From contig CAMWMN010000013.1 of the NCBI GenBank assembly GCA_947175385.1, forward strand, positions 1 through 32,559: DNA of 32,559 nt, read 5' to 3'. The translations under genes and the position numbers were made by a program. The DNA is from an uncultured Clostridia bacterium (lineage in GTDB: Bacteria; Bacillota; Clostridia; Oscillospirales; Ruminococcaceae). A model generated the notes under the pieces. That model did no database searches, was not told the origin of the DNA, and worked only from the letters and a program-made list of their open reading frames with translations. This document shows positions 4,503 to 20,464 of this stretch, piece after piece. Every line of letters starts with the position of its first letter. Position 1 is the stretch's first letter.

Positions 4503-4597
4503 GCAAATTCAAAACCGTGCACACCGCAGGTGTGCACTCGCCTGAGTGTCACGGTTCACGCTGCGTGTGTACCGCAACGCTCGCGTTTTGAATTTGC
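4503..4597 (-). repeat. Palindromic intergenic element E1 upstream of the nimA-like gene
   Basis: Outer arms are a perfect 13-bp inverted repeat (4503-4515 GCAAATTCAAAAC with 4585-4597). They enclose a second hairpin of 9 bp with a 3-nt loop (4517-4525 with 4529-4537) and a weaker third hairpin (about 4551-4575). Read toward the gene on the minus strand, the outer arm is followed by TATTTAGATAAGGAG, which is the Shine-Dalgarno of the nimA-like gene. The left arm is identical to the left arm of element E6a at 20207-20219. Confidence 0.75.
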
Positions 4598-4665
4598 ACG
4601 AGTCGCCGATAGGTTGTTTTGGATTAAAACTTACCAAACTGCGCCGCTTTAGGCGGCATTCCTTA

Positions 4666-4694
4666 ATTATCCATTGTCCATTCTACACTATCAA
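4666..4694 (-). promoter_or_regulatory. Candidate promoter for the nimA-like operon
   Basis: On the minus strand there is TTGATA (complement of 4689-4694), a 17-bp spacer and GATAAT (complement of 4666-4671). It lies directly after the rpsT terminator and reads toward the nimA-like gene. The transcript would start near 4659 and carry a leader of about 180 nt that includes a GCCGC/GCGGC hairpin (about 4641-4656) and element E1. Confidence 0.5.
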
Positions 4695-4733
4695 TTAAAA
4701 ACAATCACCCGCAAACCGAACGGTCTTGCGGGC
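4695..4733 (-). terminator. Rho-independent terminator of rpsT
   Basis: Just past the rpsT stop, the minus strand folds as CCCGCAA-(G)-ACCG / CGGT-TTGCGGG (4708-4732, one bulged base). A T-rich run follows (complement of 4696-4701). Distance and form fit an intrinsic terminator for rpsT. Confidence 0.75.
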
Positions 4734-4760
4734 GGAAACATAGCCGTAAAGCGTTAAGCA

Positions 4761-5000
4761 TTAAGCGTTTGCTTTCTTTGCGAGCTGGGACTTCAGGCGA
4801 GCGGCCTTGTTCTTGTGGATAAGACCCTTACCCGCAGCCTTGTCTACATTGATGCTTGCAGCCTTGATGGTGTCAGCATCAGCGCCCTCCGCGCGTGCCT
4901 TCTTGATGGAGGTTCTCAAAGCGGACTTTGCAGCCTTGTTCGCCTCGGTTCTCTCCTTAGAGATAAGAACTCTCTTCTTAGCGGATTTGATGTTCGGCAT
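4761..5000 (-). CDS. rpsT: 30S ribosomal protein S20
   Basis: 79 residues, highly basic, all-helical sequence beginning MPNIKSAKKRVLISKERT, the typical S20 N-terminus. The length is slightly shorter than Bacillus S20 (about 88). S20 is a primary 16S rRNA-binding protein of the 30S body. The start ATG (4998-5000) has a strong AGGAGGTG Shine-Dalgarno. The gene stands alone on the minus strand, divergent from gpr as in many Firmicutes, with its own promoter (5221-5249), a structured leader of about 210 nt and a terminator (4695-4733). Confidence 0.97.
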   Translation of the reverse strand: MPNIKSAKKRVLISKERTEANKAAKSALRTSIKKARAEGADADTIKAASINVDKAAGKGLIHKNKAARLKSQLAKKANA

Positions 5001-5289
5001 TTCTGTTCACCTCCTATTTTAATTGCAGCCGCGAATCGGGCAATAGTGACTTCGCATTTGCTGCGTCACCCTCACTCGCTTTCGCAAGTTGCGTCTTGAA
5101 TTAATTCAATCCGTATTTTACGAGCTTTTTCGGGAAATCTTTATATATATTCACCAAAAATCCCCGTAAGACTACACAAATTTTTGTAGCACCCATTTGG
5201 ATTATTTTACAGTACATTTCATTATAACATATTAATTTCAAAATTTCAAGGGGTTTTAGAAAATTTTTTACGAAATTTGGAGGAATTTT
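5001..5289. promoter_or_regulatory. Divergent rpsT-gpr intergenic region with structured rpsT leader
   Basis: 289 bases without a gene. It carries the rpsT promoter on the minus strand. In the rpsT leader near 5046-5098 there are small hairpins: minus-strand CTTGC-GAAA-GCGAG with a GNRA-type loop, and GTGAC/GTCAC enclosing GCGAAG. These resemble the loop motifs of the elements in the ribosomal operon. For gpr I see only the Shine-Dalgarno (GGAGG at 5280-5284). A CATATTA at 5229-5235 resembles a sporulation sigma-G -10 box, but I find no convincing -35 for it. Confidence 0.55.
5221..5249 (-). promoter_or_regulatory. rpsT promoter (sigma-A type)
   Basis: On the minus strand: TTGAAA (complement of 5244-5249), 17-bp spacer, TATAAT (complement of 5221-5226), with TG one base upstream of the -10 (extended -10). 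Transcription would start near 5214, giving a leader of roughly 210 nt ahead of rpsT. Confidence 0.75.
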
Positions 5290-18830: not shown

Positions 18831-18869
18831 TTCTACGGGCTGATTTCAGATTAGAAAGCGTTATTTGCA

Positions 18870-19625
18870 ATGATCCAAATTAAAAACCCAACCGAGCTTA
18901 AGGCTATGATGAAAGCAGGGGAGCTTGCAGCACAGGCACTCGCGCTTGCCGGCAGGCACGCTGTTGCGGGAATCTCCACGTGGGAGCTTGACAAGATTGT
19001 TGATGAGTTCATACGCTCTAAAGGCGGGCATTGCCCGTGCAAGGGGTATGGCGGATTTCCGGGACATAATTGCTATTCGATAAACGAAGAGCTTATCCAC
19101 GGAATCCCGTCCAAAAGGAAGATCCTCAAGGACGGCGACATCATCTCCTGCGACATTGTAGCAGAGCTTGACGGCTTTATGGGTGACAACACCAAGACAT
19201 TCAAGGTCGGAACGGTATCTCCCGAGGCAGAGCGCATTATGAAGTTCACCGAAGAGGCGCTCTACAAGGGAATCGAGCAAGCGGTCGCGGGGAATCGCAT
19301 AGGCGACATCTCGCACGCGATACAAGCCCACGTTGAAAGCGGCGGATACCGTTGCGCCGAGAAATTCTGCGGCCACGGGGTAGGACGCGAAATGCACGAG
19401 GATCCCGAGGTTGCAAACGAGGGCAAGGCGGGGCATGGTCCACGGCTTGTTCCGGGAATGACGATCGCCATAGAGCCAATGGTTAATTCCCACTCCCGCA
19501 AGGTCAACGTTCTGAACGATAAATGGACAGTAGTGACAACAGATGGCAGCTTGTCCTGTCATTTCGAACACTCCATCGCGATAACGGACGGCGCGCCCGT
19601 TATCCTGACATTGGAGAGCCACTGA
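18870..19625 (+). CDS. map: Type I methionine aminopeptidase
   Basis: 251 residues, normal length. It removes the initiator Met from nascent proteins. The five metal ligands of the pita-bread fold are all present: Asp95 (SCDI), Asp106 (MGDN), His169 (CGHGVGREMHEDP), Glu202 (IEPM) and Glu233 (FEHSI). The catalytic HGIP histidine is at residue 77. The start ATG 18870 has only a weak GAAAG Shine-Dalgarno 39 nt after adk. The stop TGA overlaps the start of the KOW gene (TGATG). Confidence 0.97.
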   Translation: MIQIKNPTELKAMMKAGELAAQALALAGRHAVAGISTWELDKIVDEFIRSKGGHCPCKGYGGFPGHNCYSINEELIHGIPSKRKILKDGDIISCDIVAELDGFMGDNTKTFKVGTVSPEAERIMKFTEEALYKGIEQAVAGNRIGDISHAIQAHVESGGYRCAEKFCGHGVGREMHEDPEVANEGKAGHGPRLVPGMTIAIEPMVNSHSRKVNVLNDKWTVVTTDGSLSCHFEHSIAITDGAPVILTLESH

Positions 19626-19885
19626 TGAGATTTGACGCGGGAAGAGTGGTTATAAGCTCCGCGGGGCACGATTCGGGAAGGGTTATGGTTGTGACGGGAG
19701 CTGACGGCGGCTTCGTTTATGTTGCCGATGGTAAAGAGCGTAAGCTCGAATCCCCGAAAAAGAAGAACATTAAGCACGTTCGTTATACCGAAAACACAAT
19801 TGGGCTTTCGGGACTGACGGACAGGAAACTGCGGCAGACGCTGAGGGCGCTCGCCACAAAGAGCACGTTACAGGAGAGTGAATAA
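19625..19885 (+). CDS. KOW-domain RNA-binding protein (L14e-like)
   Basis: 86 residues from ATG 19625, which overlaps the map stop by one base; a longer in-frame reading would start inside map. The KOW-like N-terminal barrel is [23 protein letters not shown] (residues 1-23) followed by [17 protein letters not shown]. This small protein occurs between map and infA in many Clostridia and Bacilli and is annotated as an L14e/KOW-domain protein; its exact role, presumably RNA or ribosome binding, is not established. It overlaps the Shine-Dalgarno of infA. Confidence 0.85.
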
Positions 19886-19886
19886 C

Positions 19887-20105
19887 TTGTCTAAGGAAGA
19901 TGTACTGGAAGTAGAGGGCACAATACTGGAGGCACTGCCGGACGCGAAGTTCAAGGTAGAGCTTTCCAACGGACACCAAATCTTGGCGCATATCAGCGGC
20001 AAACTGCGTATGAATTATATTCGCATTCTGCCGGGCGATAAGGTTACGGTGGAGATGTCCCCCTATGACCTTACAAAGGGCAGAATCACATGGCGTGCCA
20101 AGTGA
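19887..20105 (+). CDS. infA: Translation initiation factor IF-1 (TTG start)
   Basis: 72 residues, the canonical size. The start is TTG 19887 ([16 protein letters not shown]), with AGGAG at 19872-19876 about 10 nt upstream. A GTG at 19878 is only one or two bases from the Shine-Dalgarno and would add three foreign residues. The S1/OB fold is complete: [38 protein letters not shown]...[13 protein letters not shown] end (KGRITWRAK). IF-1 binds the 30S A site during initiation. Its start is immediately after the KOW stop. Confidence 0.95.
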
Positions 20106-20464
20106 GTAAGCCCTGAGCAATCGGCAGTTTTAAGCAGCACAAAGCAAATCCCGCGAAACGTTTGGGGACGCAAGGCGAATCCCGAAAAACGTTTGAGGGG
20201 TGCAGGGCAAATTCAAAACGCGCGTGGCGCGACGGAGCGAAGCGGAGTCGTGACGCGCAGGCGAGCAAACACAAAATTTTTGAAGAAAATTTTGTGTTTG
20301 AGGTTTTGGGTTTGCAAATCAAGACGCTCCGCGCAAGTCGGCAGAACCGAAGCAGAGGAGCGAAGCGACGGTTGCGAGGTTCTGCGAGGTTTTGCGAACG
20401 GAACGAAGTGAAGAGAGCAAAACCGACGGCTGAGCGGAGCAATTTGAGATAGGAGGTTATATCC
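20106..20464 (+). repeat. 359-base infA-rpmJ gap: compound palindromic element E6
   Basis: No gene is present. E6a (20207-20315) has outer arms GCAAATTCAAAAC and GTTTTGGGTTTGC, fully paired in RNA with two G-U wobbles. They enclose GCGCGT/ACGCGC (20220-20258) capped by GGAGCGAAGCGGAG, and a perfect 14-bp stem (20267-20280 with 20286-20299). E6b adds GCAGAACC/GGTTCTGC (20341-20348 with 20378-20385) and GGTTTTGC/GCAAAACC (20388-20395 with 20417-20424), with loops carrying GAGCGAAGCG and GGAACGAAGTG. It ends CAATTTGAGATAGGAG, the rpmJ Shine-Dalgarno. Near 20150-20200 an AAACGTTTG(A/G)GG segment occurs twice. Confidence 0.75.

Follow-up and report, generated by a model that had tools for sequence, protein, structure and literature searches.

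Palindromic elements abutting Shine-Dalgarno sequences in an uncultured Ruminococcaceae bacterium and its relatives

The first 32,559 nucleotides (nt) of contig CAMWMN010000013.1 (hereafter the window), from the assembly GCA_947175385.1 of an uncultured Clostridia bacterium of the family Ruminococcaceae, contain a ribosomal-protein operon in which several intergenic gaps are occupied by palindromic elements with arms built on GCAAATT. These elements belong to a large family, most copies of which stand in gene orientation directly 5' of a Shine-Dalgarno sequence, and a smaller set of which separates the Shine-Dalgarno sequence from the AUG. The family is probably a genus-restricted, non-autonomous palindromic element that spread in the manner of miniature inverted-repeat transposable elements (MITEs) and resides in mRNA leaders of the window species and several relatives, where its RNA would close on itself. 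In the following, G000 denotes the genome of the window, G018 that of a sister species, and other G-numbers further genomes of the genus. Both of the element-rich genomes are drafts, with 171 contigs (G000) and about 30 contigs (G018; a metagenome-assembled genome) and a completeness of 97% and 99%, respectively.

The position of the elements was determined in 378 kb of G000 (the window and 20 stretches chosen for containing arms) and 407 kb of G018, which retained 85 and 91 copies, respectively, after removal of overlapping weaker matches and of matches shorter than 80 nt. A start codon with a Shine-Dalgarno sequence was found within 60 nt on the 3' side of 138 of these 176 copies (69 in each genome). 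On the 5' side this was the case for 7 copies (4 and 3), two of which, one per genome, had such a start codon on both sides. The distance between the 3' arm and this start codon was 18–26 nt for 126 copies (64 and 62), as compared with 1.6% of random intergenic points on a random strand of the same stretches; at any distance up to 60 nt, the value for random points was 9.5%. Most copies are thus of what we call type 1, placed just 5' of the Shine-Dalgarno sequence, and the remainder includes the upstream members of tandem pairs (e.g., L013:8201, L012:4955, and L095:3231). The 3' arm is followed by YATTWARAT and then usually by AAGGAG, while the 5' arm is preceded by GGYGAYTAGT or a similar sequence and, further upstream, often by a segment around TTATAACCCAAAGCAACCTATCGG. 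This adjacency to the Shine-Dalgarno sequence is the most informative feature of the family and was not remarked on in an earlier note on the window, which had described elements of this kind in five of its gaps. Among the copies read in other genomes of the genus, type 1 leaders accounted for 17 of 27 in G033 (which also has one copy of the second type, L144), 7 of 12 in G028, 3 of 4 in G026, 4 of 6 in G063, all four in G021, and the single copies in G024 and G066. They made up a minority in G006 (1 of 9) and G023 (5 of 17), where GAAATTTC arms dominate. Copies with self-complementary GAAATTTC arms occur in these two genomes among CCGCCAAAACAACGTTATA-like repeats (L140, L141, L150, L163, L170, L222, L223, and L226).

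In six sampled copies, referred to as type 2, the AUG followed the 3' arm at a distance of 7–11 nt with no Shine-Dalgarno sequence in between. All six had a core Shine-Dalgarno sequence within 16 nt upstream of the 5' arm, as compared with 19 of the 138 type 1 copies within 14 nt (Fisher's test; p = 1.6e-5). A pattern describing the element's 3' end running into ATG, selected blind to the 5' side and run on the whole of G000 and G018, matched 17 places, and none in the reversed control. These places comprise 13 genes and four tandem elements; an upstream Shine-Dalgarno sequence was flagged automatically at 10 of the 17, and L176, L177, and L182 were assigned on re-reading. Adding L010:16511, L092:2990, L094:17235, and L028:5268, the last being type 2 by reading although the automatic tally had placed it in type 1 owing to a later start, gives 17 type 2 genes in all. 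In every one of them, a predicted folded RNA is flanked by the Shine-Dalgarno sequence on its 5' side and by the AUG on its 3' side, and no other Shine-Dalgarno sequence intervenes. The layout consists of the Shine-Dalgarno sequence (GGGG, GGGGG, GGAG or GGAGG), 1–6 nt, an element of 33–113 nt, another 7–11 nt (exactly 9 nt in 10 of the 17 genes), and the AUG. The start codons of five type 2 genes were checked against Pfam. The matches began at residue 2 of a choloylglycine hydrolase-family protein, at residue 1 of a PlsX-like FA_synthesis protein, and at residue 4 of a response regulator as well as of a heavy-metal ATPase. For the remaining gene, the match to shikimate kinase started at residue 11 and that to AAA_18 at residue 4. 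Four type 2 genes form orthologous pairs between G000 and G018. In three of these pairs the spacing is kept and the element sequence differs, with element identities of 0.64, 0.66, and 0.27 versus 0.94, 0.90, and 0.93 for 300 nt of the respective genes, and in the fourth pair both element and gene have an identity of 0.94.

The copies are predicted to fold as a three-way junction with a closing stem, P1 (12 pairs), and two variable hairpins, P2 (21 pairs) and P3 (17 pairs). In a structure alignment with few gaps, composed of 21 copies picked by length (112 or 103 nt), 97.5% of 1022 cells were paired and compensatory changes on both sides were seen at 29 of the 50 pairs. The covariation score was 0.441, as opposed to 0.048–0.105 with slid partners; the pair of columns 23 and 70, for example, is C-G in 11, U-A in 6, and A-U in 4 copies. 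The arms in G000 and G018 keep GCAAAT as their first six bases, and the later bases vary together with their partners. Predicted folding energies were −48.5 kcal/mol for the window element E1 (see below) and −77.7 kcal/mol for the copy at L013:8215-8326. On the gene-sense strand, the apical triloops were mainly GAA (64), AAA (63), and GCA (53), with TTT and TTC found 17 and 12 times; RNA-type (A/G)NA loops outnumbered the complementary class by 202 to 38. GNA loops are especially stable in DNA, and this preference would equally suit single-stranded DNA hairpins. Nested in the hairpins of some elements are palindromes around GGTGACCGCCCAAAGCGCGGCA...GGCGGTCAC (L017:17315-17484, L094:18437-18641, and L098:12733-12928).

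The 13-mer GCAAATTCAAAAC from the element's arm occurred 108 times in G000 (51 + 57) and 130 times in G018 (67 + 63), and the reversed 13-mer was absent from G000. In the other 59 of the 61 genomes searched, the 13-mer was present once in 14 and missing from 45. A more general finder, which required GCAAAT...ATTTGC plus 6 or more out of 7 additional pairs, detected 53 elements in the 378 kb of G000, none in one mononucleotide shuffle, and one in the reversed sequence; hence the elements are not due to chance. When a collection of 84,980 species (one genome each), which may not include the window's own genome, was screened for a two-arm pattern with the arms 62–92 nt apart, 27 stretches matched. 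Of these, 26 stem from 'Oscillospiraceae bacterium isolate Mgla_MAG_34-bin_10' and one from 'Clostridiales bacterium isolate Mgla_MAG_34-bin_3'. A covariance model gave matches at E ≤ 0.001 in 14 of 43 genomes of the genus, including relatives with other arms (G001, G005, and G010 are among those in which it gave none), and a deeper search of seven genomes yielded at least 68 matches in G033, 61 in G023, 28 in G006, 20 in G028, 11 in G021, 10 in G026, and 7 in G063. These copy numbers are lower bounds, as at most 77 (43-genome search) or 150 (seven-genome search) candidates were scored per genome. An order-wide search, with 16 candidates scored per genome, returned matches at E ≤ 1e-4 in one of 197 genomes, namely the window's own, and in none of the 196 others. 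The arms vary among species, with GAAATTTCAAAA in G006, G023, and part of G033, and AAAATTTGCGAAAGC or similar sequences in G028 and G063; what recurs across species is the junction together with an end resembling YTTTAAATAAGGAG. No description of this element family was found in the open-licence texts that were searched.

The elements and associated features of the window are as follows, with bit scores from a covariance model that was trained on other copies.

4488..4502, minus strand: 3' tail of E1, TATTTAGAT, with the Shine-Dalgarno sequence AAGGAG, read from the sequence
4503..4597, minus strand: E1, three-way-junction element of type 1 in the leader of a nimA-like gene (3999-4481, minus strand); 85.4 bits
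6545..6579, plus strand: stem in the rpsJ leader, doubtful member; 20.9 bits, E = 0.03
8652..8755, plus strand: E2, in the rplW-rplB gap, with 12-nt arms; 58.7 bits
8756..8771, plus strand: 3' tail of E2 and rplB Shine-Dalgarno sequence AAGGAG, read from the sequence
15838..15923, plus strand: E4, in the rpsE-rpmD gap; degenerate member with arms 88% complementary
18069..18148, plus strand: E5, in the secY-adk gap; 38.4 bits, with a sister copy in the same gap
20140..20206, plus strand: two 28-nt direct repeats, spaced by 31, immediately 5' of E6a; repeat family D3
20207..20315, plus strand: E6a, in the infA-rpmJ gap; 72.9 bits
20324..20448, plus strand: E6b, a further palindromic insert, which separates E6a from the rpmJ Shine-Dalgarno sequence, from the comparison of the G000 and G018 gaps

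The outer inverted repeats reported in the earlier note for the five gaps were confirmed, with perfect or near-perfect arms: the arms of E1 (4503-4515/4585-4597; 13 nt) and E2 (8652-8663/8744-8755; 12 nt) are 100% complementary, those of E4 (15838-15854/15907-15923; 17 nt) 88%, and the right arm of E6a has two mismatches. E1 and E6a indeed have the left arm GCAAATTCAAAAC in common. They lie on opposite strands, as had been noted, yet relative to its own gene E1 points in the same direction as the other elements, and the start codon of the nimA-like gene is located 21 nt past its arm. Of these five, which had been described as sharing one plan, the model recovered E1, E2, E5, and E6a and missed E4 at E ≤ 0.1; in the sister species, the rpsE-rpmD gap contains a model match of 51 bits (L067:11783-11926). 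The rpsJ leader stem had been put forward as a sixth, simpler member, and its score leaves this membership doubtful. A small AT-rich hairpin separates E5 from the adk Shine-Dalgarno sequence. The sister copy of E6a directly adjoins the Shine-Dalgarno sequence, and E6b, which carries GAACCGAAGCAGAGGAGCGAAGCGACGGTTGCGAGGTTC, does not occur in the rpmJ gap of the sister species. A sequence similar to E6b occupies the rplW-rplB gap of G024 (L072). That the copies in the operon are not disruptive can be read simply: they stand between a stop codon and an intact Shine-Dalgarno sequence. Outside the operon, 69-bp tandem repeats at window positions 4-915 encode a repeat protein, whose C-terminal end we take to be dockerin-like.

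As the earlier note had suggested, a covariance model was run, which found the further copies in the window's genome and in relatives from the genus, and the ribosomal-operon gaps of relatives were compared. The rplW-rplB gap of 21 genus genomes measures 163 bp in G000, 169 in G018, 146 in G024, 89 in G064, and 17–24 in the other 17, and AAGGAGTGAA, from the E2 tail and rplB Shine-Dalgarno region, is common to most of the empty sites. G066, which is outside this set, has a model match in the same gap (L146). The rpsE-rpmD gap spans 153 bp in G000 and 182 bp in G018 versus 22–48 bp in 12 genomes (7 not measured), and the infA-rpmJ gap 359 and 243 bp versus 20–88 bp in relatives. For secY-adk, the values are 204 and 205 bp versus 24–128 bp in 18 genomes; the 185-bp gap of G024 holds a palindrome of its own. 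Twenty-eight orthologous leaders are filled in both G000 and G018. The mean element identity at these leaders is 0.66, compared with 0.625 in mismatched pairs from the same set, while the genes are 93% identical; the position is often kept with different hairpins and arms. The model left 7 of 35 and 11 of 39 orthologous sites unfilled, of which 3 and 5, respectively, were empty on reading, and the others contained a different palindrome, a shorter one, or a copy missed by the filter. Seven well-scoring copies and one weak copy, which may not be an element (L018:3791-3947; 21.3 bits), thus stand opposite an empty orthologous site. In the cleanest case (L104:10533-10633), TTAGT, the element, and CATTTAGAT are inserted between CTGTTCGG and the A-rich Shine-Dalgarno region. 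The inserted left end TTAGT provides a stop codon at this locus, and in the frame as read the upstream protein is four residues shorter. Taken together, different elements at orthologous positions and the empty sites argue that elements arrived or were replaced repeatedly at the same position. Many elements have tandem segments of ~30–41 bp with TTATAAC and GCAAC on their 5' side (L017:11500-11745, L101:7411-7620, and window positions 20140-20206), which, as their ends resemble the 5' arm of the element, may be what is left of earlier copies. In G018, one three-way-junction copy is adjoined by a distinct inverted-repeat element with the ends AAGGCAACACCGCACAAAG (L098, ~12490-12730).

We infer from these features that the RNA folds in the cell and that ribosomes read past the fold. 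P1 would join both ends of each full copy. The element occupies one of two positions, nearly always gene-oriented, either directly 5' of the Shine-Dalgarno sequence or between it and the AUG. The ribosome could use a Shine-Dalgarno sequence on either side of the P1 base because the RNA is closed on itself, which would make an insertion nearly invisible to translation. More tentatively, and with somewhat less than even confidence, we propose that a mobile family has evolved a ribosome-transparent RNA that can abut the Shine-Dalgarno sequence or separate it from its AUG at more than 100 genes of one genome, with split ribosome-binding sites arising at many of these, its sequence turning over under a constant geometry. 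Several observations weigh against these interpretations. A core Shine-Dalgarno sequence also precedes the element in 19 of the 138 type 1 copies, and the GAAATTTC-armed subfamily is found mostly outside leaders. The predicted accessibility of the Shine-Dalgarno sequence did not differ significantly between native (0.568), element-deleted (0.522), and shuffled (0.557) leaders (n = 69; alternate copies for which a gene was called on the right, restricted to recognisable Shine-Dalgarno sequences). Stem mismatches were more often G.T than A.C overall (245 versus 105), with 100 G.T-rich and 21 A.C-rich elements, but this excess is confined to P2, the first hairpin (158 to 27), whose consensus includes a G.U pair, and there is no clear wobble excess in P1 (48 to 50) or the last hairpin (39 to 28); selection on base pairs at the RNA level is therefore not shown by wobble counts. 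As for the proposed transposition, a target-site duplication is not visible at L104:10533-10633, most left flanks having diverged too far for a verdict, and a mobilising gene was not found, with Y1 transposases as the family searched for. A longer parent element with an internal gene was not found in the 785 kb sampled either, where none of 29 left ends outside model matches had a matching right end within 6 kb.

The earlier note had left the choice between a REP- or MITE-like element and a genus-specific mRNA structure. The data point to a combination, a MITE-like repeat that is also an mRNA structure, as the presence/absence at orthologous sites and the tandem copies speak for the former and the fixed place and orientation at the ribosome-binding site for a role at the mRNA level. 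The family shows typical MITE traits in its short, non-coding sequence (33–205 nt), terminal inverted repeats in the form of the 12-nt paired arms, and presence or absence at orthologous sites. An ordinary MITE, whose enzyme recognises single-stranded hairpins and inserts beside purine tracts resembling Shine-Dalgarno sequences, and whose RNA fold has no translational role, would account for the right boundary fixed before AAGGAG or ATG, the strand-biased triloops, the tandem copies, and the missing wobble excess in P1 and the last hairpin. We nevertheless regard it as unlikely, although it is the strongest of the alternatives: such an enzyme was not found (Y1 transposases being the family searched for), the Shine-Dalgarno sequence precedes the element in all 17 type 2 genes, and three of the four orthologous type 2 pairs keep their spacing despite element identities of 0.27–0.66, a pattern better accounted for by selection on translation than by targeting alone.

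Still less probable is an inherited cis-acting regulatory or mRNA-stabilising leader element, shaped by compensatory mutation and gene conversion, that protects or processes mRNA 5' of the ribosome-binding site. The 28 leaders filled in both species, the strict position, and the covariation would fit such an element; it is at odds with whole elements with other arms and hairpins at orthologous sites, with empty orthologous sites and tandem copies, with a rplW-rplB gap of 17–24 bp in 17 of 20 relatives, and with the lack of Rfam matches at gathering scores. A known Rfam family was rejected for the window on the same grounds, and the only two Rfam matches in three related loci (idnO and sucA) were both below the gathering score. 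An intrinsic terminator was likewise discarded, as copies are followed by ATTWARATAAGGAG rather than a T run. The two inverted arm-plus-hairpin halves, the high copy number, and the intergenic location recall repetitive extragenic palindromic (REP) sequences and their paired forms (REPINs), which are mobilised by a REP-associated tyrosine transposase (RAYT) of the Y1 type. This part of the earlier proposal was not sustained and is highly improbable for our elements. The Y1 transposase family PF01797, the sole transposase type searched by family, had no match in G000 or G018 despite their 97% and 99% completeness, although it did in 9 of the 43 genus genomes. Moreover, GTAG or CGTC at the stem foot is absent from the consensus, the ends of which (judged from the consensus, not copy by copy) are TAGT followed by GCAAAT and ATTTGC followed by YATT.

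The common view of insertion elements is that they persist where neighbouring genes suffer little harm. The family reported here occupies the few most sensitive bases in front of many genes, among them ribosomal genes, and the reason why it is tolerated there may be that its RNA folds shut. It offers a natural, replicated test of the ways in which a repeat adapts to translation and of whether ribosomes can start across a large folded structure, for which the described case that we found concerns only two genes of phage T4. Different elements at fixed orthologous positions furthermore represent natural compensatory-mutation experiments.

In T4 genes 25 and 38, a structure between the Shine-Dalgarno sequence and the AUG, which are 22 and 27 nt apart, brings both to a working distance, and this has been experimentally proven (PMC3014915). 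The type 2 elements resemble this case in having a folded RNA that would shorten the effective distance between the Shine-Dalgarno sequence and the AUG. They differ from these single phage genes with short spacers in that 17 genes of two genomes are concerned, with repeat-family elements of 33–113 nt. Among bacterial repeats, Correia and ERIC are transcribed and affect mRNA processing, and the pneumococcal BOX, RUP, and SPRITE repeats are over-represented between convergent genes (PMC10969869, PMC3049150). Our elements are similar to all of these in being short non-coding repeats with inverted ends, and differ from BOX, RUP, and SPRITE by their gene-oriented position directly before ribosome-binding sites. 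In contrast to these MITEs, their arms vary within one genome with pairing kept, and a related transposase was not found in the search for the Y1 family. With REP sequences and REPINs they have in common a palindromic intergenic family with paired inverted halves; in the two rich genomes, however, they occur with no detected RAYT, and their ends are different and their place is the leader of the gene.

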